A stretch of DNA of 39,033 bases, from assembly GCF_001436215.1 (NCBI RefSeq), contig NZ_AYYP01000008.1:1-39033 (forward strand), given 5' to 3'. This DNA is from Ligilactobacillus agilis DSM 20509. GTDB lineage: Bacteria; Bacillota; Bacilli; Lactobacillales; Lactobacillaceae. The position numbers and the translations under genes were made by a program. This document shows, piece by piece, positions 3,826 to 18,043 of the stretch (the stretch's first letter is position 1; each line of letters begins with the position of its first letter). The notes below the pieces were generated by a model. That model worked only from the letters and a program-made list of their open reading frames with translations, made no database searches and was not told the origin of the DNA.

Positions 3826-5517
3826 ATGATGAATTTGCAACTCAAAAGAAAACTTTTCTTACTAGTCTTTGGCTTGGCAGTAGTCACCTTGACTACTAGC
3901 TTAATCTTCGTTAAGCAAAAGGCTAGTTCTAACGCTACTTCTTCTGAGACAATTTTGCCAGTCGCAAACGGACAGACCGTCACCACCTTAGATTACTCCG
4001 ACTTAAACATTAAGAGTGTTAGCGACATTTATCAAACCGCCACTTAAACTAAAATTGCCCAAAAGATCAAGCAACTAGAGGCTAGCCAAACTTATTCTTT
4101 CGATAAAATGTTAGTACTAGCTAACCCCTACCTAACTAACACTACTGGTCTGTACCTACACTTTACAACCACGAAAGCAACTAAGGTCTCCTATACGGTC
4201 AAAAGTAAAGAGGCTAGCACCTTTAGCCAAACACTCTATAACCCCAACGGAACCTACGCTAAGAATCACACCTACCAGCTAATTGGTTTAATTGCCGGCC
4301 AGGAAAATACCATTACCATTACCGCCACGGGCCAAAATGGTCAAAAAGAAACTAAGACCTTCACTTACACCCCTAACAAGCTACGGGGAAGTGATCAAAA
4401 CCAACTTAAGGTTACTAAAGGCACTAGCAAAACCAAGCTTTCCTCCGGCCTTTACGCCGTAATTGGTGATAAAAGTCTAAAGACCCGCAACACTTACTTG
4501 GTCGATAATGACGGTTACATCCGTGCCGAAATTCCGACAATTAATTATAATTCCCTGCGCCTAATCCAAACCAACAATAAACTTTACCTAGCAGTTGACG
4601 ACGACCAACTAGTTACGTTAGACCGGTTAGGTCAAGTGGTGCAGTCTTACTCGCTTAAAAACACTAACTTCAAACTCCACCATGACTTTGCCGTGGATAG
4701 CCAGGGTAATATCATCGCCCTCGCGACTGATACCAAGCTTAAAGCCAGTGAGAAGCGGGTTGAAGATCAAATTATCAAGATTGACGCTACTTCCGGCAAA
4801 GTCAGTCGCCTCTTAGACTTCAAGGACTTGTTGGGCGATCTTTATAAAACCGCCACCGGGATTGAAACTCTAACTAATAACAAGGGCTACCGTGACGTTA
4901 TCCACGCCAATACTATTCAACTAACTAAGGATGACCAAGTTATTATTAGCTCCCGGGAAACTTCGACCATTATGAAAATTTCTAACCTTACTAGTCAGCC
5001 CAAGTTAGACTACTTTATTTCTGATCCGTCGGTTTAGCAAGGGATTGGCACGTATGCTAATTTGTTGTTGAATAAAGTTGGCAACTTTACTTCCCAAGCT
5101 GGGCAACACTCTGTAACCTATATTCCAACTGAGACAGCCGGGGTTTACTATTTGGAAATCTTTAACAACAACTCTGTAATTATGAACTCCCGAACTAACT
5201 TTAGTTGGACTAATTACCCTAATAGCGGGGGCGCAACAACTTCTAACGACTATCAATCTAGTTACTATAAGTACCTCGTCAACGAAAACACCGGTAGTTA
5301 CCAACTAGTCAAAAAAATTAGCCTACCTTACTCGCCATTTATCTCTAGCGTTCAGACTAATGATAATAACGTCGTGACTGATTCAGGAATGACCGCCGCC
5401 TTTGCCGAATATGACGCGGATGGCAAATTAATCCAGTCCTTTGAAACTACTGGTATCACTAAGTTTATCTACCGGGTCTATAAATACGACTTTAATAATT
5501 TTTACTTTGCTAACTAA
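3826..5517 (+). pseudogene. Arylsulfate sulfotransferase (ASST family), two in-frame nonsense codons
   Basis: A single 564-codon frame begins at ATG 3826 behind AAAGG and ends at TAA 5517, interrupted only by TAA at codon 74 (4045-4047) and TAG at codon 404 (5035-5037). The N terminus has one hydrophobic segment (about residues 9-28), as an anchored or secreted protein would. The central part resembles ASST beta-propeller proteins: HHDFAVDSQGNIIALA, DVIHANTIQLTKDDQVIISS, then VGNFTSQAGQHSVTY after the second stop. The TAG follows SDPSV, where a Trp codon (TGG) would fit. The family moves sulfate between phenolic compounds outside the membrane. Frame is otherwise preserved, suggesting recent loss. 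Two different stop codons argue against programmed readthrough. It is the only plus-strand gene in the first 19 kb. Confidence 0.82.
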
Positions 5518-5521
5518 AACA

Positions 5522-5554
5522 AGCCCCCTAACACCAAGGCCGTGTTAGGGGGCT
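5522..5554. terminator. Bidirectional terminator between ASST pseudogene and SPFH gene
   Basis: AGCCCCCTAACAC (5522-5534) pairs with GTGTTAGGGGGCT (5542-5554): a 13-bp GC-rich stem placed between two convergent genes. The T-tail is weak on either side. Confidence 0.85.
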
Positions 5555-5560
5555 GTTTAG

Positions 5561-6373
5561 CTATTTCTTCATATCCAACATTTTATCAATTACAGGAATA
5601 TTACCTAAATCGGTAATTTCATCCTTGGACATTACCACCAAGTTAGTATCCGACTGGGCTAGCTTAGTAAAGGCGGCAATACTTTGGTCCCTAAAGTAAT
5701 TGTCCGAAACTGACTCTAGGGCCGCACGAATCTTTTCAATCCGGTAACTTTCTGCGTCGGCCCGCATTCGGGTTGCTTCCGCTTCTGCTTGAGCCGTTTC
5801 CACCAAAGCTTGATTTTTGGCATCGGTGGTTAGCTTGATATTGCGAGCTTCCCTTTCAGCCTTAGCAATCACGGCCACCCTTTCACGGTCAGCCGTTAGC
5901 TGCTTATCCATCGCCTTTTGAATCTCAATGGATGGGGTTAACTCATCAATGTTCACACGGTCGACGTTAATTCCATAAATATTAGTCAAATCACCGATGG
6001 CGGCTGCGAGTTCCGCGTTAATCTTAGAAGTTGAACCTAAAGCCGCGTTTAAATCCATCCGGCCAATGATATCACGTAAGTGGCCCCGCACTAGTTGAGC
6101 CATGGATTCTACTGAATCAGTATTCTCATAGGTGTACTTCTTAGCATCCGTTACGTGATAGTTTAAGGTCACACTAGCTTCGATGTCAGCATTATCTTGA
6201 GTAATGACTGAGTACTTTTGCAACTTCAACGGGTGCATGGCTAGTTCTACCGACTCAATTCTCTGGATGAAGGGGATGTAAAAATGCAAACCTGCTTCCA
6301 CGCTGTGCCTGTATTTTCCTAAGGTCTCTACTAACCCCTGACAATTCTGTCTAATAATTTTAATTCCTAACAT
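5561..6373 (-). CDS. SPFH/Band 7 (stomatin-like) protein lacking an N-terminal membrane anchor
   Basis: A 270-residue SPFH-domain protein. The N-terminal SPFH core (about residues 1-150) has GLVETLGKYRHSVEAGLHFY and then RGHLRDIIGRMDLNAALGS. It is followed by a long alanine/glutamate-rich coiled coil (about 160-225, AEREARNIK to RADAESYRIE) and a C-terminal tail ending IDKMLDMKK. Stomatin relatives normally begin with a transmembrane or hairpin segment, but here the protein starts directly at MLGIKIIRQN with no hydrophobic span, so membrane contact would be peripheral or acylation-based. AAAGGGG lies ahead of the ATG, and only 14 nt separate it from the upstream RHH-NfeD gene. NfeD proteins are established SPFH partners, which supports a joint role for this pair. 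The exact function is unknown. Confidence 0.88.
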   Translation of the reverse strand: MLGIKIIRQNCQGLVETLGKYRHSVEAGLHFYIPFIQRIESVELAMHPLKLQKYSVITQDNADIEASVTLNYHVTDAKKYTYENTDSVESMAQLVRGHLRDIIGRMDLNAALGSTSKINAELAAAIGDLTNIYGINVDRVNIDELTPSIEIQKAMDKQLTADRERVAVIAKAEREARNIKLTTDAKNQALVETAQAEAEATRMRADAESYRIEKIRAALESVSDNYFRDQSIAAFTKLAQSDTNLVVMSKDEITDLGNIPVIDKMLDMKK

Positions 6374-6387
6374 GCTAAATTACCCCT

Positions 6388-6750
6388 TTACTCACCAACA
6401 AGCGGCCTTAACGTGATAATATTTCCTACGGCTTCAATTACAATATAATCTGCCTGCTTATCAACTGGCCGGTTGCCCTCGATTAGATAACGATAATAAA
6501 TCCCCTTAACTTCGACTAAACCATTAGCTTGGTCGATTTTTTGCCCGGCTATTTTCTGGCCGAGAAAGTTTCTCTTCTCAAACGAACCTGCTTCCACCTG
6601 CTGAGGCGGATCTTTCAAGGTTAGGGAGACAATTTCTTGCAAAGTTGCATTCACACTCTTATTTTCAGATTGAGCTTTACTCTCTAACCGCCTTTTTAAG
6701 TTTTTAGGCAGGCGAAAGAGAAAAGAAGTCATCTCTTCATCTCTTGCCAT
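6388..6750 (-). CDS. Ribbon-helix-helix (Arc-type) DNA-binding domain fused to NfeD-like OB domain
   Basis: The start at 6750 is chosen because AAGGTGG precedes it and an upstream in-frame ATG would place the start inside the promoter and operator boxes. This gives 120 residues, MARDEEMTSFLFRLP onward. Residues 7-45 match the Arc pattern: a strand FLFRLP, then LKRRLESKAQSENKSVNATLQEI-type helices. After a short linker, residues about 63-118 look like the C-terminal soluble domain of NfeD: GQKIAGQKIDQANGLVEVKG, a YYRYLIEGNRPVDKQ turn, then VIEAVGNIITLRPL. Typical NfeD is membrane-bound and pairs with stomatin; here the membrane part is replaced by a DNA-binding part. The next gene is an SPFH protein 14 nt away. 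I infer an autoregulator that may sense SPFH status. The NfeD assignment is by pattern only. Confidence 0.72.
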   Translation of the reverse strand: MARDEEMTSFLFRLPKNLKRRLESKAQSENKSVNATLQEIVSLTLKDPPQQVEAGSFEKRNFLGQKIAGQKIDQANGLVEVKGIYYRYLIEGNRPVDKQADYIVIEAVGNIITLRPLVGE

Positions 6751-6768: not shown

Positions 6769-6804
6769 TGATATCATTATGATATCACTTTTTATATCAA
6801 CCAA
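6769..6804 (-). promoter_or_regulatory. Promoter of RHH-NfeD/SPFH operon with tandem palindromic operator boxes
   Basis: On the minus strand TTGGTT (6799-6804) and CATAAT (6776-6781) are 17 bp apart. Two perfect copies of the palindrome TGATATCA lie at 6769-6776 and 6780-6787, starts 11 bp apart, and a partial copy TATATCA lies at 6793-6799, about 13 bp further. Boxes spaced about one helical turn and overlapping the -10 are what an Arc-type dimer pair would be expected to bind, so autorepression by the first gene is likely. Inference from spacing and position. Confidence 0.6.
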
Positions 6805-6820: not shown

Positions 6821-6846
6821 AAAAAAGCCACGACTAAGCGTGACTT
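6821..6846 (-). terminator. Terminator after nitroreductase
   Basis: AAGCCACG (6825-6832) pairs with CGTGACTT (6839-6846), one G-U pair; on the minus strand it is followed by a T run. Confidence 0.8.
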
Positions 6847-9755: not shown

Positions 9756-11903
9756 CTACTAAACATTATTGATTTAACATACTTCTGAGACCTTGACGAG
9801 TAGCAGGCTTCACAAGGTGAAGTACTAAACATCATTGATTTAACATACTTCTGAGACATTGACTGTTAAACTAGTTGGGATAATTAAGTACTAAACATCA
9901 TTGATTTAACATACTTCTGAGACCTATTTACAAAAAATCTAACCCGGTTTTTAGTACTAAACATCATTGATTTAACATACTTCTGAGACTTATCATCTTC
10001 CAAATCCTCCATTCGGTAAGTACTAAACATCATTGATTTAACATACTTCTGAGACCACTTTGTCCTGCTTTAATATGATTTCCACGTACTAAACATCATT
10101 GATTTAACATACTTCTGAGACGGAAATTCACCTATTACTTGCCAGGTAAAGGTACTAAACATCATTGATTTAACATACTTCTGAGACCGGCGTTAGTCAA
10201 ACCTATGACAAAGGTTCGTACTAAACATCATTGATTTAACATACTTCTGAGACAGAACATAAAGTCGATATTCTAGCAAGTGAGTACTAAACATCATTGA
10301 TTTAACATACTTCTGAGACTTTATGTTTAACTATAATATAATTATTTATGTACTAAACATCATTGATTTAACATACTTCTGAGACATGTAACTGTCGGTG
10401 ATAGTAGCATATCAGGTACTAAACATCATTGATTTAACATACTTCTGAGACATTTACGACTGAGTCTCTACATGATGTAAAGTACTAAACATCATTGATT
10501 TAACATACTTCTGAGACTACAGTTGGTACAAAAAGACTCAATGTCAGGTACTAAACATCATTGATTTAACATACTTCTGAGACGTTTGAAAAGGAACCAT
10601 AAACAGAACCCAAGTACTAAACATCATTGATTTAACATACTTCTGAGACCCTTTTTCCTGTTTGTAGGGCTAAAAGAACGTACTAAACATCATTGATTTA
10701 ACATACTTCTGAGACATTCCCTCGCTTAAATCCGACCTGAGCACGGTACTAAACATCATTGATTTAACATACTTCTGAGACGAAATGTAGAAAGTAATTT
10801 GGAAATCATGAGTACTAAACATCATTGATTTAACATACTTCTGAGACAAGTGTAGCTGGTGGCATGGTTAGTGCAGGGTACTAAACATCATTGATTTAAC
10901 ATACTTCTGAGACACTTAGCTGGCAAGGATATTCGTTATAGTTGTACTAAACATCATTGATTTAACATACTTCTGAGACGGTTGCAAGCGACGCAGTTTC
11001 CATTGCTGCGTACTAAACATCATTGATTTAACATACTTCTGAGACTATCATCGACCTTTTAAGTAATAAAAATTTGTACTAAACATCATTGATTTAACAT
11101 ACTTCTGAGACAGTACCCTTCATGGTCTGGTAACACATGCAGTACTAAACATCATTGATTTAACATACTTCTGAGACTCGTGCCGGCGATTTCATCAATT
11201 ATTTTTTGTACTAAACATCATTGATTTAACATACTTCTGAGACCTATTAGTCAGCTACCCCTCACTAAAGTGAGTACTAAACATCATTGATTTAACATAC
11301 TTCTGAGACCGAAACAGTGGCGATTTTAGATGAAGCTAAGTACTAAACATCATTGATTTAACATACTTCTGAGACTGATGACACATCCACAGTTAGAATT
11401 GGCATGTACTAAACATCATTGATTTAACATACTTCTGAGACACAACTGCGTGATATTTATCTAGATTCTATGTACTAAACATCATTGATTTAACATACTT
11501 CTGAGACGATGATGAAGGTTTAATACAAGAAACGCTTGTACTAAACATCATTGATTTAACATACTTCTGAGACCCATCAGAAGCAAGAATTCTTGCTGGA
11601 TGTGTACTAAACATCATTGATTTAACATACTTCTGAGACAATAGTGTCAATCCTTTGATGGATTTATCTGTACTAAACATCATTGATTTAACATACTTCT
11701 GAGACTTGTGATAAAGAATTAATTGTAAAATTTGCGTACTAAACATCATTGATTTAACATACTTCTGAGACACGATATTAAAAAGATAATCATGGATAAT
11801 TGTACTAAACATCATTGATTTAACATACTTCTGAGACCCTAGGTTTTGCTGATTCTATTATGAAAAAGTACTAAACATCATTGATTTAACATACTTCTGA
11901 GAC
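9756..11903 (-). CRISPR. Type II-A CRISPR array, 33 repeats of 36 bp and 32 spacers of 30 bp
   Basis: Repeats start at 9756 and recur every 66 bp to 11868 without deviation. In transcript (minus) orientation the repeat begins GTCTCAGAAGTATG and ends GATGTTTAGTAC. The leader end is at 11903, beside csn2, because the degenerate repeat is at the opposite end (9756-9791: first base of the plus strand C instead of G, and a T for C at the twelfth base). All other repeats look identical. All spacers are distinct by eye, so there is no sign of recent duplication. The uniform repeats suggest an active or recently active locus. The spacer at 11244-11273 resembles the TnpB transposon end at 38478-38507. 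The spacer at 11574-11603 contains a 16-nt perfect palindrome. Confidence 0.99.
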
Positions 11904-11955
11904 CGATATTTATTAATCAATATCTAATCTTTAGAAGTACCAACCAACGAAGTCA
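11904..11955 (-). promoter_or_regulatory. Candidate CRISPR leader/array promoter overlapping the csn2 3' end
   Basis: Only 27 nt separate the csn2 stop from the first repeat. They contain an inverted repeat GATATT (11905-11910) and AATATC (11919-11924) and abut the repeat as AATATCG. On the minus strand TTGGTT, 17 bp, then GATATT is the best promoter-like pair, with its -35 inside csn2. The match is weak (3/6 and 4/6). Confidence 0.35.
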
Positions 11956-12602
11956 GCATCAATATAGTAATAATTACAGTTTTTATAATAATCCTTCTTA
12001 TCCAAATCTGAAAATTCAATTAGAAGGACTTTCGTTCCAATTTCATTATTAACATACTGAAGTTCACGAAATTGTTCTTGCGTCATATAACTAGCTAGGT
12101 TATTGAACACAATACACGATTTATCATCACACTCAATATGAAGTTTTAAATCACTTTCAATTATACCATAAGCATCATTAGATATAGAAGGATGTAAGTG
12201 GATGTTAGCATATTTAAGTAACCGTTTAACATCCCCATCAAAACTAACTTCTAAAGGAATATCTGTCATAAACAAACTTTCCTGCAAGAGTGTAAATAAT
12301 TCGCGCGCCTTCTTTTCAATACTTGTCCTCACGTGCGGAGCCAAGCCCTCGGTAATCTTATTAACTAACTCTAGCTTGTAACGTTTATCTAAGTCATGAT
12401 TAATCAAAGCGTCGCCGTCAAAATCAAAAGCTAAATTATTGTTAATAAGGCTAAAATCATCGCTGTACGCTTTTACCTTGTCATTGTAATCTTTTACACC
12501 TAAAATCAAATCTTTGTAAACTGTAGGATTATTAGTTGCTATTACCGTTATCTTACCTTCATCAATTTGTACTTCATCGTATCCTTGGTAGCTAAGTTTC
12601 AT
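11931..12602 (-). CDS. csn2: CRISPR adaptation protein Csn2
   Basis: Type II-A signature protein of about 220 residues; this one is 223. Csn2 forms tetrameric rings around free DNA ends and helps Cas1-Cas2-Cas9 acquire spacers. The assignment rests on length, position as the last gene after cas2, and an N terminus typical of the family (MKLSYQGYDEVQIDEGKITV), with a GILGVKD-like P-loop-remnant region near residue 33 and a C-terminal VLLIEFSDLD strand. The ATG overlaps the cas2 stop as ATGA, implying translational coupling. Its 3' end probably doubles as part of the leader of the adjoining array. Confidence 0.93.
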   Translation of the reverse strand: MKLSYQGYDEVQIDEGKITVIATNNPTVYKDLILGVKDYNDKVKAYSDDFSLINNNLAFDFDGDALINHDLDKRYKLELVNKITEGLAPHVRTSIEKKARELFTLLQESLFMTDIPLEVSFDGDVKRLLKYANIHLHPSISNDAYGIIESDLKLHIECDDKSCIVFNNLASYMTQEQFRELQYVNNEIGTKVLLIEFSDLDKKDYYKNCNYYYIDADFVGWYF

Positions 12603-12904
12603 AAAATTATCGTCCTTTGTGCTGAATTTCTAATATCTTTTTTCTTTTCACCTAGCAAAAAGTGCATATCATTGTACTGCTTTTCAGTTAACATCAAGGT
12701 CTGAATTGTCCCATTTTCAGGTAAATAAACACTGACCCTTTTTTCTAAGAACTCTGCTGACTGCCTTGTTACGCAAACCCTGACATAAACAGAGTACTGT
12801 ATCATAATAAAACCTTCTCTAATTAATGCCTTTCGAAATTTTCGATACTCTCTTCTATCTTTGCTAGTTTCCGTTGGTAAATCAAACATGATCATTAAGC
12901 GCAT
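12599..12904 (-). CDS. cas2: CRISPR-associated endoribonuclease/integration protein Cas2
   Basis: Small ferredoxin-fold protein that forms the Cas1-Cas2 spacer integration complex. The start at 12904 (MRLMIMFDLPTETSKDRREY) gives 101 residues, the usual length, with the conserved Asp in MFDLP near the N terminus; a GAGG lies about 8 nt upstream. A longer in-frame start at 12919 would add MRYRT and lacks a better ribosome site. It overlaps the 3' end of cas1 and the first base of csn2, so the three adaptation genes form one tightly packed transcript. Confidence 0.95.
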   Translation of the reverse strand: MRLMIMFDLPTETSKDRREYRKFRKALIREGFIMIQYSVYVRVCVTRQSAEFLEKRVSVYLPENGTIQTLMLTEKQYNDMHFLLGEKKKDIRNSAQRTIIL

Positions 12905-13787
12905 TGTACGATACCTCATTTGGTAGAGTCACCTCAATTTTTATATTGTCTTTCTTGCCGTTTAGATAATTTAAGCAATCGCTAACATATTTTGTTATCG
13001 CATTTCTTAATAGTGTATTTTTACCATTATATTTAATCTCTAAATTTAACATATCCACTAATCCGTACTTCACATCAGGTGTAAAATCAAGAAAATTTTG
13101 CCCATTTACCCAATAATCTACTATTGGTCTAAACGGTTCTATTAGGTCACACCCAAAATTAAATTGATTTTCATTACTATGATGATGAATTCCTAAATAA
13201 GTCAAAAAACCATTTTGCACTATCTCTCTATTTATCTTTGATAGAATAACCGCATATCCATAGTCTAGCGCCTTATTTATTACTGACCCTGTCCTTCTTG
13301 AAAAATCTTTAGTAAATAATGTTTGAAAATATTTTTTTGCAACTACAGCTTCGCGGTTAGTAACATCATTTACCTCTAAAACATCCAACTCATCTTCTAG
13401 TTCTTTGGTTTGTTGTCCGTTTAATCTTAAAACTTGAATTTGATTTTCAATTTTACCAATTATAATATTGGTCCATAAAAGCTCCATTCTTTCTTGGGGC
13501 CAATTGTATTGTAGATTGATATTTTCTAACGCTAAATTATTAGGATAATATCCCACCGTTTCACAAACAGGCTCATGTTGTCTATCTGTAAAAATTACCT
13601 TAGTTCCGTTCTTAGTTAGAGCTCCAATTAAACTCGAAGTAATAACCGCCTGAGTTGTTTCAATCACCAATAACTCTATATCTTCAACAGGAATTTGACT
13701 TATTCCCTCGTTATTCTGCACCACCATCATCCGCGAACTATATGATAATTTTGAATGTTGCGTTATAATTACTGATCTCCATCCCAT
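12882..13787 (-). CDS. cas1: CRISPR-associated integrase Cas1
   Basis: Metal-dependent integrase that inserts new spacers at the leader end. Start at 13787 (MGWRSVIITQHSKLSY) gives 301 residues, usual for type II-A; AGAGGAAG lies upstream. The longer frame from 13856 reads through the tracrRNA region and is rejected. Expected metal ligands are visible: Glu in REAVVAKKYF, His in TYLGIHHH and Glu in DLIEPFRP. The C-terminal end overlaps cas2. The gene diverges from the tracrRNA promoter within about 15 nt, so its own promoter must overlap that element, or transcription must arrive from cas9 through the shared terminator. No clear minus-strand promoter is visible. Confidence 0.96.
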   Translation of the reverse strand: MGWRSVIITQHSKLSYSSRMMVVQNNEGISQIPVEDIELLVIETTQAVITSSLIGALTKNGTKVIFTDRQHEPVCETVGYYPNNLALENINLQYNWPQERMELLWTNIIIGKIENQIQVLRLNGQQTKELEDELDVLEVNDVTNREAVVAKKYFQTLFTKDFSRRTGSVINKALDYGYAVILSKINREIVQNGFLTYLGIHHHSNENQFNFGCDLIEPFRPIVDYWVNGQNFLDFTPDVKYGLVDMLNLEIKYNGKNTLLRNAITKYVSDCLNYLNGKKDNIKIEVTLPNEVSYNALNDHV

Positions 13788-13801
13788 GAAAACACTTCCT
13801 C

Positions 13802-13831
13802 TTGACAAAAAAATTAAGTTTCTTGTATAAT
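13802..13831 (+). promoter_or_regulatory. tracrRNA promoter
   Basis: A perfect TTGACA (13802-13807) and a perfect TATAAT (13826-13831) are separated by 18 bp. The predicted start, about 13838, coincides with the first base of a hairpin. This is the strongest consensus promoter in the window. Confidence 0.85.
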
Positions 13832-13837
13832 ACAGAC

Positions 13838-13979
13838 GTTGGGTAGCTCCCAACATCTAAACATTATTGATTTAACATACTGTGTTGAGATCAAACGGAG
13901 CTTTTTAGCGATGTTTATCCTTTTGAGCCATTATATGGCCATACATATTATAAAAAGTGCCCCTAAAAGGGCACTTTTT
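13838..13979 (+). ncRNA. tracrRNA, between cas9 and cas1
   Basis: Trans-activating RNA that pairs with the crRNA repeat and loads Cas9. From the predicted start it has: a 5' hairpin GTTGGG/CCCAAC (13838-13843 with 13849-13854); the anti-repeat at 13857-13881, matching the repeat at 24 of 25 bases; a bulge and a lower stem at TGAGA (13886-13890); a nexus-like GCT-TTTT-AGC stem within an outer GGA/TCC; a GCCAT/ATGGC hairpin (13927-13939); and a terminator hairpin (13952-13979). Length is about 142 nt. It runs on the plus strand, convergent with cas9. Location between cas9 and cas1 is known for other type II-A loci. The ends are predicted, not mapped. Confidence 0.9.
13952..13979. terminator. 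Bidirectional terminator shared by tracrRNA and cas9
   Basis: AAAAAGTGCCC (13952-13962), six-base loop, GGGCACTTTTT (13969-13979): an 11-bp stem with T runs on both strands. It lies 5 nt from the cas9 stop codon. Confidence 0.92.
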
Positions 13980-13984
13980 CTTTA

Positions 13985-16900
13985 CTATAAATCTCTCAAA
14001 TAAACAACTCTTTCAAAAATACCAGTTGGTGATTGATAAATTAACTTAGCGTTCTCAGTTAACACTATTCCTGACGGACGTTGTAAAAATCCGAATGGAC
14101 TCCCGCTGATAATTTTCAATTTTTTAACAACAGGATTAGCATGTAACCCATCCAAAATATCTAGCAATTCCGTTACTTTATCTGCTGTATTTAATTCTAC
14201 AAATTTATCTTTGCTACTTGTTAATTTATTTCTAAACTGTCGTGCATCATACAACGTAAATTTATCATTCACTACGTTCAATATTTCCTCATAAACAGCT
14301 ACTAACTCCCTATCACTAGCATCTTTATTAGCTAAAGATTCGATACTTTTCACACTTAAAACTAATTGTTTTGCATTATATGGGTACGCAGCACTACCCA
14401 ACATAAATTTACCGCTATCATCTTCTACAAGTTGCTTAAAATGAACCTTTGGAAGGATAATTCTAAAAGTCTTTTTCTTACCTGAACTATTTATCTGCTC
14501 ATCAACAATCTCATTTAATCGTTGCATATATCCATTGTGGTCCTCTTTGGCAAGATTATCCAATTCCGCCTTGTTTCTCATCGGAATTCCTACCACCCTA
14601 AATTTGATACCTTTCTTATCTTCCAATCGTACTATGGAAAGGTAAGCATCGTAGTTATTAGAATATCCCCCATAAATGTCAACCGGCTTATCGTTTTTCT
14701 TTTGAATTAACTTCTGTTTTGGATTTACCGGGTAGATAGTCTCCTTAAACATAGCTCCACTGTTTGTATAGGTTTCTTGCGATACTAGCATATATTTATA
14801 TTCATATGCTTTTTTCAGTTGATTAATTGCGTCTTGACGATTCATGAATACCTTATGTTCGACATTATCAACTATTTGGTCGGTCTTTCCTTCTTCTAAA
14901 TCATACAAGAAATTGTATGATTTTAGGTAATTACGGTCTTTTTTGGCATCAAATTTATTGTAATCGCCATAAACGAAATAACCACGTAACTTAGGATATC
15001 GTTGATATAAGTATCGTCCACTAAACGCCGTTAAATAAGCATCAAAAGCGTGGTGATAATCGTTGAGTTGTCTAATCTTCACAAAATTGAAATGTTCACG
15101 TAGTTCATGTGTATACTTTTGACGAACTTCTATGATTTTTGTATCTTGATACAATGTCTGCAGTATTTCAGCAGACAATTTAATAACTTGCGAAGTTTCC
15201 ACTAATTGTCTCCGAATAAAGCCATTAGCCTTATATGGGCCAATCTCGTCCGGATCAGTAAGCAAGTTAGCCAGTTTTTGTTTACTAATTAGTCCGTTAT
15301 CATATAAATCATTCCAGAAATCCTTCATTTTAGCACCATATTCACAAACAGGTACCGTATCTGATTTCTCATTATTAACCGCACGTTTTGTCAATACTCG
15401 GTTGTCTAAAGAATCATCCTTAATAAAAGACCGTGGTAAGATATGATCGCCATCACTATATAAACTCAACTGGTCAATATTAAGCGGTTCCCCCGTGTAC
15501 ATATCTCGACCTAATTGAGTGAAATATAGATAATACTTGTTCGTTAGTTTCTTCTTACTTGCTTGAAAATCTTTAAACTCAGCTAGCAAAGCTTGGTCCG
15601 TCATTTCTTCAGAAAGACTCATCAAAGTTTTTTGAAGTTGTGTCATTCGTGAATTAGTCAATTCTGAGCGCCCATCGCTTCTTGTAAATTCGATGGAAAT
15701 GGATGTAGGTTTAGCTCCCATAGCCTTCTCTACATCTTGGACAACCTTAATAACCTTACGAATTGCTTTTTTATTTTGTGGAGATGTATATGCTTCACCA
15801 AGAATCTGTTCAATATCTCCTTGCTCTAATTTATCACTATTATATTCGACGATGGCTTTTTGAAAATCTGGTTGAGACTGAATTTGCATAAAATTATTAG
15901 TAGTGTCCCACAACCAATCCATAATTCTTTGACCATTACTATCACAAATTCCAGTTAATAATCTTCTTGAAAGTCTTCCCCAACCATTATAATTAAGTCG
16001 GGTTAGTTGTGTAATATTTTCTTCCGTCAGCCACTCAATCTCTTTCAGTTTAATTCTTAAGATTTTCTTATCTTCAAAAATTGTAAGCCACTCTATAATC
16101 TGTTCAAAATCTTTTTGTCTGCCAGCATCATCTACTGCCTTACCAAATATCTTCTTTAAATCATGATAAGTGGATAAATTATTATCAAACTTAGTCCCAG
16201 TACTTAGGCCCTCTAATTTAAGGGAATTCAAGTTTTTCAGTTTAACGTTCAACCAATTTTTAAAACATTTAGCTGAAACTGTTTTACTATCTCCGTTTTC
16301 AAATAAAGCAACATATGCTTCTCGTTTTAATTCAACTGGTAGTCGTCTTCCATTAACCTTAATATTGTTAAGCTCGTTAAGAACTTTATAACGTTGATAT
16401 AGTAGGCTATTAGCTGGTAAAACATCTTCGCCAACCAGATAAGTATCCTTGGCGGTCATTCGCTTGATGAAGTCATTTGCAGATGCAATTGTATCAACCT
16501 TTTCTTCAAAGTTCCAAGGAGTTATCTCCCCTTCTTGTTTTCTAACCATCCAAGCAAAATTACTATTAGAGGTTTGTTGCTGTTTTTTACTAGTCACCAT
16601 AGGACCTACATAGTAAGGGACTCTAAAGGTTAACAGTTCATCTAATTTATACGGCGCCCGCTTCTGATGACTTTTCACTGGATTCTTCTCAGCTAACCAA
16701 GGGTAGTATTTGGACTGCATTTCAATAATCTTATCTAATTCCACTTGGTGTAATTGATTAGGAATAACCCCATTCATTGCTGTTCTTTGTTTAGGTAAGA
16801 ATTGTCCCATTTCAATTAAACCAAGTAACTTTTCAGCCCGTGAATCGTCTAACTCAACTAAGACTTTCTTTACCTCTTTATAAAAATCAGCCCTATTTTG

Positions 16901-18043
16901 GTGTGCACGCTTATCTACTTTCTTAGCTTTTGGATCCTTCCCATCAATATACAAACTATATGCTTTCTTTATAGCTTTGATTTGCTTAGCATCCATCTTT
17001 TCGTACAAAGCCTTTAATACTTGTAATTGCTCCCTATGCGCCTCATATTTATCTACCATTGATTGCGAAATACTCTTCCCGTCTGGAACAATTTCATTTA
17101 GAATAATTTGATCATGAATTGTCTTTATTGCATCAAACAATTCAGCTTGTTTTTCATTGACTAATTCTAACAATCCACTGACATTTTCTTCGGCATTAGT
17201 ATCCAATAGCGAAAAGTTTTTCTTATTTTTGTCTATTTCTAAATCATCAGCTAACAATAAATTAGCAAACTGGGCTTTCATACCTAAGATAGCATTACTT
17301 AATTCCTTAGCAAGTGAAGCATTCAGCTTATTAATTTCTTTACGGTCACTTGAAACTGCTAGTAACTTTTTAAGTGCTCCAGCTTTGTCACGCCTACTTT
17401 TATTCTTATCAATTATAATATCTTGAATAGTTTCGACATCACTCACATTAATTTTGACATCCGTATTTAATTCGTTGTATAACTCTGCCACTCGTTTTAA
17501 TTGCCTGTCTAGTTGTTCTTTTAATTCTAAACCTTCTTGCTTAAAACTATCTACCGATAATGGGCTAAGGAAATTACCACGATACTTCATAATATGATGA
17601 ATTGCCAAAAATATTGCCCTTACATCGAATTTCCTATCTTCTTCCATCAAAGCCTTTCGCAAATGATAAATTGTCGGATACTTCCTATAGAAATTAGCAT
17701 CCTTTTCATTTGGAAAAAGCAAGGAGCCCCAAAAGCGTTTATTTTCATCCTTAGGCGAAATATCAGCTTCATGGAGACGCGCTAAGAAGTTCTCGTCTAC
17801 TTCAAAAATGTAAGGATCAAAAAAAGCTTCTAAAAGTTTTAACCTTCTCTTACGACGTTTTAAACGTCTTTGTGTCGTTCGATATCCTCTCCGCTCTGCT
17901 GCCGTGTTTCCCTCTCTAAATAAGCTTGTACCAATTAATGTTTTACCCTTTGCTCTCATTAAATGATAATTGCAATCCATCACTGCATAACCTATACTGT
18001 TAGTTCCAATATCAAGACCTAAATGGTACTCTTTTTCAGACAT
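13985..18043 (-). CDS. cas9: CRISPR-associated endonuclease Cas9, type II-A
   Basis: RNA-guided double-strand DNA nuclease, 1352 residues, typical of the large II-A group. RuvC-I: HLGLDIGTNSIG with Asp11. Arginine-rich bridge helix about 50-70. RuvC-II: SISIEFTRSDGRSE with Glu785. HNH: SDGDHILPRSF with Asp866 and His867. RuvC-III: NDYHHAFDAY with His998 and Asp1001. All catalytic residues are present, so it should be active. The C-terminal PAM-interacting region ends PTGIFERVVYLRDL and does not show an obvious RxR PAM-reading motif; PAM cannot be predicted by eye. The ATG has a GGGGG-containing ribosome site. It has its own promoter and is separated from cas1 by the oppositely directed tracrRNA gene. 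The cas genes look more AT-rich than the flanking metabolic genes. Confidence 0.98.
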   Translation of the reverse strand: MSEKEYHLGLDIGTNSIGYAVMDCNYHLMRAKGKTLIGTSLFREGNTAAERRGYRTTQRRLKRRKRRLKLLEAFFDPYIFEVDENFLARLHEADISPKDENKRFWGSLLFPNEKDANFYRKYPTIYHLRKALMEEDRKFDVRAIFLAIHHIMKYRGNFLSPLSVDSFKQEGLELKEQLDRQLKRVAELYNELNTDVKINVSDVETIQDIIIDKNKSRRDKAGALKKLLAVSSDRKEINKLNASLAKELSNAILGMKAQFANLLLADDLEIDKNKKNFSLLDTNAEENVSGLLELVNEKQAELFDAIKTIHDQIILNEIVPDGKSISQSMVDKYEAHREQLQVLKALYEKMDAKQIKAIKKAYSLYIDGKDPKAKKVDKRAHQNRADFYKEVKKVLVELDDSRAEKLLGLIEMGQFLPKQRTAMNGVIPNQLHQVELDKIIEMQSKYYPWLAEKNPVKSHQKRAPYKLDELLTFRVPYYVGPMVTSKKQQQTSNSNFAWMVRKQEGEITPWNFEEKVDTIASANDFIKRMTAKDTYLVGEDVLPANSLLYQRYKVLNELNNIKVNGRRLPVELKREAYVALFENGDSKTVSAKCFKNWLNVKLKNLNSLKLEGLSTGTKFDNNLSTYHDLKKIFGKAVDDAGRQKDFEQIIEWLTIFEDKKILRIKLKEIEWLTEENITQLTRLNYNGWGRLSRRLLTGICDSNGQRIMDWLWDTTNNFMQIQSQPDFQKAIVEYNSDKLEQGDIEQILGEAYTSPQNKKAIRKVIKVVQDVEKAMGAKPTSISIEFTRSDGRSELTNSRMTQLQKTLMSLSEEMTDQALLAEFKDFQASKKKLTNKYYLYFTQLGRDMYTGEPLNIDQLSLYSDGDHILPRSFIKDDSLDNRVLTKRAVNNEKSDTVPVCEYGAKMKDFWNDLYDNGLISKQKLANLLTDPDEIGPYKANGFIRRQLVETSQVIKLSAEILQTLYQDTKIIEVRQKYTHELREHFNFVKIRQLNDYHHAFDAYLTAFSGRYLYQRYPKLRGYFVYGDYNKFDAKKDRNYLKSYNFLYDLEEGKTDQIVDNVEHKVFMNRQDAINQLKKAYEYKYMLVSQETYTNSGAMFKETIYPVNPKQKLIQKKNDKPVDIYGGYSNNYDAYLSIVRLEDKKGIKFRVVGIPMRNKAELDNLAKEDHNGYMQRLNEIVDEQINSSGKKKTFRIILPKVHFKQLVEDDSGKFMLGSAAYPYNAKQLVLSVKSIESLANKDASDRELVAVYEEILNVVNDKFTLYDARQFRNKLTSSKDKFVELNTADKVTELLDILDGLHANPVVKKLKIISGSPFGFLQRPSGIVLTENAKLIYQSPTGIFERVVYLRDL

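Follow-up and report, generated by a model that had tools for sequence, protein, structure and literature searches.

In Ligilactobacillus agilis DSM 20509, a protein that joins an Arc-type ribbon-helix-helix (RHH) domain to an NfeD-like OB domain (hereafter RHH-OB) is encoded just ahead of an SPFH/Band 7 protein without a predicted membrane anchor, and this pair is a family-wide module of the Lactobacillaceae, in which it is widespread. We consider it reasonably probable that the two genes form a self-repressing operon in which the OB domain docks on the SPFH protein and the balance between DNA-bound and SPFH-bound repressor reports SPFH assembly. The window, by which we mean the whole stretch of 39,033 nucleotides that was analysed, carries the following features at this locus.

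6388..6750, minus strand: RHH-OB gene, 120 aa, Arc-type RHH plus NfeD-like OB domain (ORF and translation, Pfam Arc, AlphaFold2, Foldseek)
6610..6735, minus strand: RHH domain, residues 6-47 (Pfam PF03869; model helices 16-28 and 33-45; Mnt alignment)
6400..6582, minus strand: NfeD-like OB domain, residues 57-117 (model strands between 66 and 117; Foldseek to QmcA-YbbJ and NfeD; hhalign 85.9%)
5561..6373, minus strand: SPFH/Band 7 gene, 270 aa, no N-terminal transmembrane (TM) segment (Band_7 E 3.5e-32; hydropathy)
6769..6776, minus strand: putative operator box 1, TGATATCA, a palindrome; exact, and conserved in relatives
6780..6787, minus strand: putative operator box 2, TGATATCA; exact, 11 bp from box 1, with an 11-bp period in relatives
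6792..6799, minus strand: third, imperfect box, TTATATCA on the plus strand; one mismatch, 12 bp from box 2, read from the window sequence
6773..6800, minus strand: promoter-like site TTGATA-16-AATGAT, overlapping the boxes; three found against 2.8 expected, not significant alone
6825..6846, minus strand: terminator-like hairpin between the upstream gene and the RHH-OB/SPFH pair
5522..5554, minus strand: terminator-like hairpin directly 3' of the SPFH gene, 13 pairs with a T-rich tail; two terminator-like sites found against 1.6 expected

The RHH-OB reading frame runs on the minus strand from an ATG at 6750 to a TAA stop at 6388-6390 (120 codons). Pfam Arc matches residues 6-47 of its product (E 4.3e-4; score 20.5 bits, cut-off 20.4), and the AlphaFold2 model, a monomer in which the ribbon strand is unassigned, contains the two helices at 16-28 and 33-45; Foldseek matched this fold to Arc, AmrZ and CopG. 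In an alignment with Mnt, the FRMP of that protein corresponds to FRLP in the window protein, and Arg13 together with the KSVN motif ((R/K)SVN; Ser32/Asn34) occupies the same residue numbers as in Arc. A Pfam search of 40 relatives recovered Arc in 24/40 and HicB in 23/40, and matches to RHH families of the antitoxin type (ParD_like, TacA1, FitA-like and CopG_antitoxin) were also found among relatives.

For the C-terminal half of the window protein Pfam returned no match, NfeD included. The AlphaFold2 model, built with 40 sequences (mean pLDDT 88.6, whole-chain pTM 0.54), has a weak linker between the halves and places strands between residues 66 and 117, with pLDDT of about 94 to 97 in blocks 61-110. 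Compared with the PDB by Foldseek, the model matched QmcA-YbbJ (8z5g) at rank 1 (E 0.015, probability 0.99), followed by 3wwv (the stomatin operon partner 1510-C), 2k5h (MTH693) and 1par (an Arc-operator complex, probability 1.00); further matches were to 2exd (NfeD), to 3cp0, also an NfeD protein, and weakly to 2k14, mixed with unrelated structures, and no match in the PDB reached E ≤ 0.001. When 40 OB halves were compared by hhalign with NfeD domains of the same phylum (26 of them), the probability was 85.9% (E 5.2e-6). Pfam NfeD matched 5/40 relatives, the four scores inspected all lying under the curated cut-off of 29.1 bits, and in L. murinus (L002) a single protein matches both Arc (2e-8) and NfeD (0.007, residues 59-112, below cut-off). 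A sequence search of the PDB with the OB profile gave a single chance-level match, to a Pumilio chain (E 0.5). Hydropathy detected no TM segment in RHH-OB (maximum over 19 residues, 1.2); because N-terminal TM segments are missing, the C-terminal half is an NfeD-like domain and RHH-OB is not an NfeD protein, and the similarity to NfeD, judged from sequence and model comparison, appears remote.

The SPFH gene begins 14 nt past the RHH-OB stop on the same strand. Its product matches Band_7 in Pfam at E 3.5e-32 and the HflK model below that model's own cut-off, and hydropathy found in it no N-terminal membrane anchor of the sort that most SPFH subfamilies have (top 19-residue value, 0.74); a missing TM helix does not prove that the protein stays off the membrane. 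An earlier note on this DNA had proposed an Arc-type RHH domain fused to an NfeD-like domain beside an anchorless SPFH protein, a proposal that depended on an OB-like fold after residue 60. It was right about the domains of the 6388-6750 product: Pfam Arc, the predicted helices and the Foldseek match to operator-bound Arc (1par) agree for the first half, and for the second AlphaFold2 predicts OB strands after residue 60, which Foldseek relates to an SPFH-NfeD complex. Hydropathy and coordinates likewise agree with an SPFH partner lacking an anchor 14 nt downstream.

The pair reads as a two-gene operon, with a promoter-like site over the boxes and terminator-like hairpins on either side, both kinds of site occurring in the region no more often than by chance. 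Co-folding of the concatenated RHH-OB and SPFH proteins, for which the natural in-frame read-through of both genes at 28 related loci served as input, gave a pTM of 0.34 with a disordered junction and no confident interface; in the L031 model a single long helix follows the SPFH domain. Read-through of the stop codon, suggested by fusion-like loci that have long open frames and, close to the match end, an in-frame stop (TAG, TGA or TAA), was rejected as a candidate: the gap length is variable, and of two loci from the same genus group (L031 against L036) one is out of frame. The apparent read-through frames are taken as chance together with a Shine-Dalgarno sequence overlapping the stop.

Elsewhere in the window, three ORFs in the same frame on the plus strand at 3826-5517 (3826-4047, 4108-5037 and 5062-5517), with in-frame stops between them, resemble one gene interrupted twice. 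ORFs of 1352, 324, 106 and 223 aa on the minus strand at 11931-18043 have the look of a type II CRISPR-Cas system (cas9, cas1, cas2, csn2) recognised by eye, and repeat-like ORF translations lie near this set at 11468-11815.

With the window RHH-OB as query, matches, some to the OB half only, were found in 171/397 Lactobacillaceae genomes and 28/40 genus groups, and the SPFH protein was found at E 1e-60 in 216/397. The SPFH gene is present in 168 of the 171 genomes with an RHH-OB match compared with 48 of the 226 others (Fisher p 1e-62, ancestry ignored), and the three exceptions look degraded: G175 has an internal stop and no SPFH nearby, G295 has its SPFH in two pieces, and in G377 the neighbouring SPFH is seemingly shortened. 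Among loci fetched by RHH-OB alone, SPFH is the next gene on the same strand in 30/30 and 80/80 cases of two sets that share species, the median gap being 24 nt in the first and 14 nt in the second. RHH-OB copies are carried by 19 L. salivarius plasmid records, annotated as hypothetical in 19/19; the one L. salivarius plasmid record inspected has the same operator and gene pair among different neighbouring genes, with an SPFH protein adjacent. When RHH-OB was sought outside the family, among 295 genomes sampled from the order and 398 from the phylum, the matches listed were mainly to the RHH part or contained stops, and viral contigs yielded one RHH-OB locus (L210 3680-4009, on a contig classed as viral in IMG/VR). 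In four loci of one genus group (L027, L029, L096 and L100; g19) a third small ORF of roughly 110 aa lies between RHH-OB and SPFH, with a similar ending in 4/4.

Two further points of the earlier note concerned relatives and DNA. The gene pair, whose loss in relatives was to count against the note's reading, is conserved in the 168 genomes and in every locus of both sets; and the boxes at 6769-6799, named there as the DNA on which binding should be sought, qualify as a putative operator, the consensus TGATATCA-N3-TGATATCA lying just 5' of most RHH-OB genes. When 136 loci were first scanned, unrelated RHH loci among them, it was found at ≤2/16 mismatches in 81/136 upstream regions, compared with 0/680 simulated and 0/266 flanking stretches. 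The locus set used thereafter comprised 247 loci, 246 of them with an SPFH match and 189 remaining after duplicate removal; it excludes L101-L129, which are unrelated RHH loci, L211-L245, which are box-scan and NfeD loci, and further L070, L095 and two 10-base placeholders, and L037, which is cut by a contig end, was not counted as lacking the RHH arginine. Among non-redundant loci with the arginine in the RHH strand, the operator is present in 96/108 at ≤2/16 mismatches and in 97/108 at ≤3, compared at ≤2 mismatches with 0/23 scoreable RHH loci without the arginine and 0/30 OB-only loci (together 0/53), and with 0/29 loci, duplicates kept, upstream of partnerless SPFH. Of the 11/108 Arg-type loci that have no double box even at 3 mismatches, seven (L042, L046, L202, L203, L205, L207 and L209) keep one perfect half-site. 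Inspection by eye and a simple scan saw no alternative shared palindrome in the RHH loci without the arginine. The box spacing is 11 bp in 46/64 neighbouring box pairs.

The exact box pair is the sole match in the window at ≤3 mismatches (0.14 expected), and the 2.06-Mb genome to which the window belongs has one site at ≤2 mismatches, the operon's own; at 3 mismatches, 13 further places were found compared with 9 for the reversed pattern. A wider regulon in this genome is ruled out at ≤2 mismatches by the single site. We also scanned the genomes of 40 relatives at ≤1 mismatch, 28 of them picked for a known good operon box and 12 serving as controls. Exactly one site was recovered in 26/28 good-box relatives; the remaining two, G087 and G225, have overlapping triple boxes, and G225 has one extra intergenic site. 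One control genome of the 12 (G297) has a site, inside a terminator-like hairpin, and the reversed operator pattern gave zero matches in the 40 relatives' genomes at ≤1 mismatch. In G225, of the Liquorilactobacillus group, a second perfect double box lies between genes (L317 2001-2019; G225:C143:103587-103605), and the ORFs listed in its surroundings include none that resembles RHH-OB.

Together, the conservation of the operator and its single genomic site are good evidence, at the level of sequence, in favour of an autorepressor. The placement of the sites bears equally on the proposal that the RHH domain tethers the SPFH assembly to the chromosome, as a nucleoid or DNA-to-membrane scaffold exerting no promoter control. 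An SPFH ring displays many copies, and without an anchor the protein may depend on a recruiter, which would suit such a tether; but the one good genomic site lies in the operon's own promoter region, the 28 good-box relatives together have one site elsewhere, and in 59 loci the operator starts 15-74 nt before the RHH-OB gene. Sites so placed do not amount to a distributed anchor, and we regard tethering as very unlikely.

The partner of SPFH also varies with the presence of a membrane anchor. Across the 189 non-redundant loci, SPFH is anchorless in 108 and anchored in none of the loci with an Arg-type RHH, anchorless in 20 and anchored in three with an RHH lacking the arginine, and anchorless in nine and anchored in 21 with an OB-only partner; where no partner was detected (27/189 loci) it is anchorless in two and anchored in 25, and at least one locus counted as partnerless, L271, probably has a weak OB partner that was missed. 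In the 49 loci with an anchored SPFH the partner is thus OB-only, a degenerate RHH or none detected, and the exceptions to the pattern are 31 anchorless loci without an operator-type RHH. In species counts, operator-type RHH and SPFH anchor show a striking near-exclusion, with few independent events behind it. Because the OB domain adjoins SPFH in 30 non-redundant loci without any RHH, we take the OB to be the SPFH-linked half; and because 20 anchorless loci keep an RHH that has neither the arginine nor an operator, the RHH there would have another role or be in decay.

Ancestry was considered on a tree of 120 SPFH proteins, made by a quick method and with several long branches; it excludes L290, near-identical rows and any row shorter than 220 residues. 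On this tree we count 5 changes of the anchor and 13 of the arginine. On well supported branches, 4.2 of 5 independent pairs agree for arginine and operator and none is opposed (median p 0.125, range 0.06-0.5); for RHH and anchor, 1.1 of 4 independent pairs agree and 0.6 are opposed, which is not significant. The evolutionary sample behind both contrasts is small.

Several loci show other arrangements. More distant anchored SPFH proteins are found at L268-L278, 10/11 of them beside a short OB-only protein (at L271 none was detected), and this arrangement is possibly the ancestral form of the pair. In three Pediococcus loci (L167, L181 and L189) a basic, hydrophilic stretch of about 70 residues extends the SPFH frame at its N-terminus in place of an anchor. 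At L090 (G154) the SPFH frame has a far-upstream hydrophobic segment and the adjoining RHH has neither arginine nor operator; this locus lies on a long branch among Ligilactobacillus-type loci of the SPFH tree.

These counts weigh on two rival accounts of the pair. Under plain autoregulation the RHH half keeps the operon low, the OB half lets RHH-OB serve the SPFH assembly as a normal soluble subunit of NfeD-like kind, and the halves are independent, with assembly having no effect on repression; a single good genomic operator suffices for simple feedback of this kind, and the 30/189 loci that keep OB and SPFH without an RHH indicate that the halves are separable. Simple feedback does not, however, predict that 0/108 operator-type RHH loci have an anchored SPFH, an observation with few independent events behind it, and we judge plain autoregulation unlikely, if far from negligible. 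The second account is a toxin-antitoxin-like module with RHH-OB as antitoxin and SPFH as toxin. Type II modules have a short upstream RHH antitoxin with a C-terminal partner-binding domain, autoregulation and a small gap, which the layout here fits, and the antitoxin-type Pfam matches among relatives are in keeping with it. Against it, the toxin of a type II module is one that cannot be kept alone, and SPFH lacks a detected upstream partner in the 27/189 loci given above, two anchorless ones included and L271 probably a missed partner, and SPFH proteins form a scaffold family in which we know of no toxin; we hold this account to be extremely unlikely.

In the self-repressing operon that we favour, the RHH half of RHH-OB would dimerise and bind the tandem TGATATCA palindromes, one helical turn apart, and a repressor placed on boxes over its own promoter would shut the operon down, as the conservation of the operator suggests. 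The OB half, being of NfeD type, would dock on the SPFH protein that the shared transcript encodes, by analogy with QmcA-YbbJ, with repressor molecules decorating an SPFH ring or cage. More tentatively, SPFH assembly might control repression, as the earlier note also suggested: where SPFH is anchorless, repressor on the assembly might compete with repressor on DNA; with the two set against each other, the output of the operon would report the amount or state of SPFH, most plausibly of assembled or membrane-seated SPFH. The effect of SPFH could run in either direction, as co-repressor or as anti-repressor.

A more specific form of this mechanism, which we advance tentatively as a possible but doubtful one, is that the SPFH cage works as a DNA-or-membrane switch: its assembly or its settling on the membrane would either pull the repressor off the single operator or present an array of RHH dimers to that operator, by which the cell would count or sense its SPFH platforms. 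A TM anchor would break such a switch, which would explain why operator-type RHH and anchor are not found together. More generally, the pair suggests a linkage between an SPFH protein and control of its own gene. This bears on what SPFH-NfeD systems do and on how a cell adjusts or gauges their abundance: because the partner domain is carried by a putative repressor whose operator is a defined stretch of 19 bp, partner binding or assembly could become readable by a promoter reporter.

Among known systems, E. coli QmcA-YbbJ consists of two proteins that are both membrane-seated. The window pair resembles it in combining an SPFH gene with an NfeD-type OB partner, and its structure (PDB 8z5g) is the best Foldseek match; unlike in QmcA-YbbJ, RHH-OB and SPFH of the window are both without a TM segment and the OB is borne by a DNA-binding domain. 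In the description of this complex, 26 heterodimers form a cage that projects into the cytoplasm (2026; cited passage of PMC13086221). With the NfeD proteins YuaF of B. subtilis and 1510-C of P. horikoshii, the window pair shares the OB fold and an operon with SPFH. According to the cited passages of PMC2636767, NfeD homologues are mostly of 140-150 aa with three N-terminal hydrophobic stretches; in RHH-OB, compared with such a typical NfeD, the RHH occupies the place of these stretches. SPFH-NfeD operons and soluble SPFH subfamilies are on record in the same source (Hinderhofer et al. 2009, PMC2636767), whose cited passage reports no NfeD homologue for SPFH3, 4 and 6-12 and adds that weakly conserved ones were possibly overlooked. 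The soluble SPFH8 and SPFH9 subfamilies resemble the window SPFH in having no predicted membrane segment, that feature alone having been compared.

On the DNA side, Arc resembles RHH-OB in its RHH fold (Foldseek) and Mnt in sequence alignment. Arc has paired half-sites about one turn apart, as in the window boxes, and both Arc and Mnt are repressors of phage origin that have neither an OB domain nor an SPFH partner. PutA is an unrelated protein offering a functional analogy, its RHH (2jxg) being a weak Foldseek match at rank 34. This proline-oxidising enzyme bears an RHH with which it represses the operon that encodes it, and it leaves DNA to go to the membrane, which makes it the nearest precedent for an RHH protein exchanging one for the other; compared with PutA, the membrane side here would be an SPFH assembly. 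The closest regulatory relative in print that our search found is the LRS-like operon (LytTR regulatory system) of Bacteroides, in which, in the cited passage, a regulator accompanies a membrane protein with an NfeD-like domain (PMC6193735). In LytTR systems, as compared with RHH-OB, the DNA-binding LytTR domain is on a separate protein, and that passage names neither SPFH nor an RHH-NfeD fusion (PMC6193735).

Changes in SPFH proteins have been recorded in proteome studies of lactic acid bacteria, although neither protein is equated here with the paired SPFH: in the passages cited, one is among the proteins reduced under ethanol when Oenococcus oeni overexpresses mscL (PMC13209313), and SPFH/Band 7 lp_1690 of L. 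plantarum changed -1.6-fold in a biofilm comparison (PMC11066574). The open-licence literature, which was the scope of our search, with subscription papers and preprints outside it, yielded no described RHH-NfeD protein. To our knowledge no further SPFH system is directly connected to DNA, and the literature search agrees. Seen against these systems, the pair appears to be an SPFH-NfeD module whose NfeD half became a putative repressor, a known type of module in a new form.
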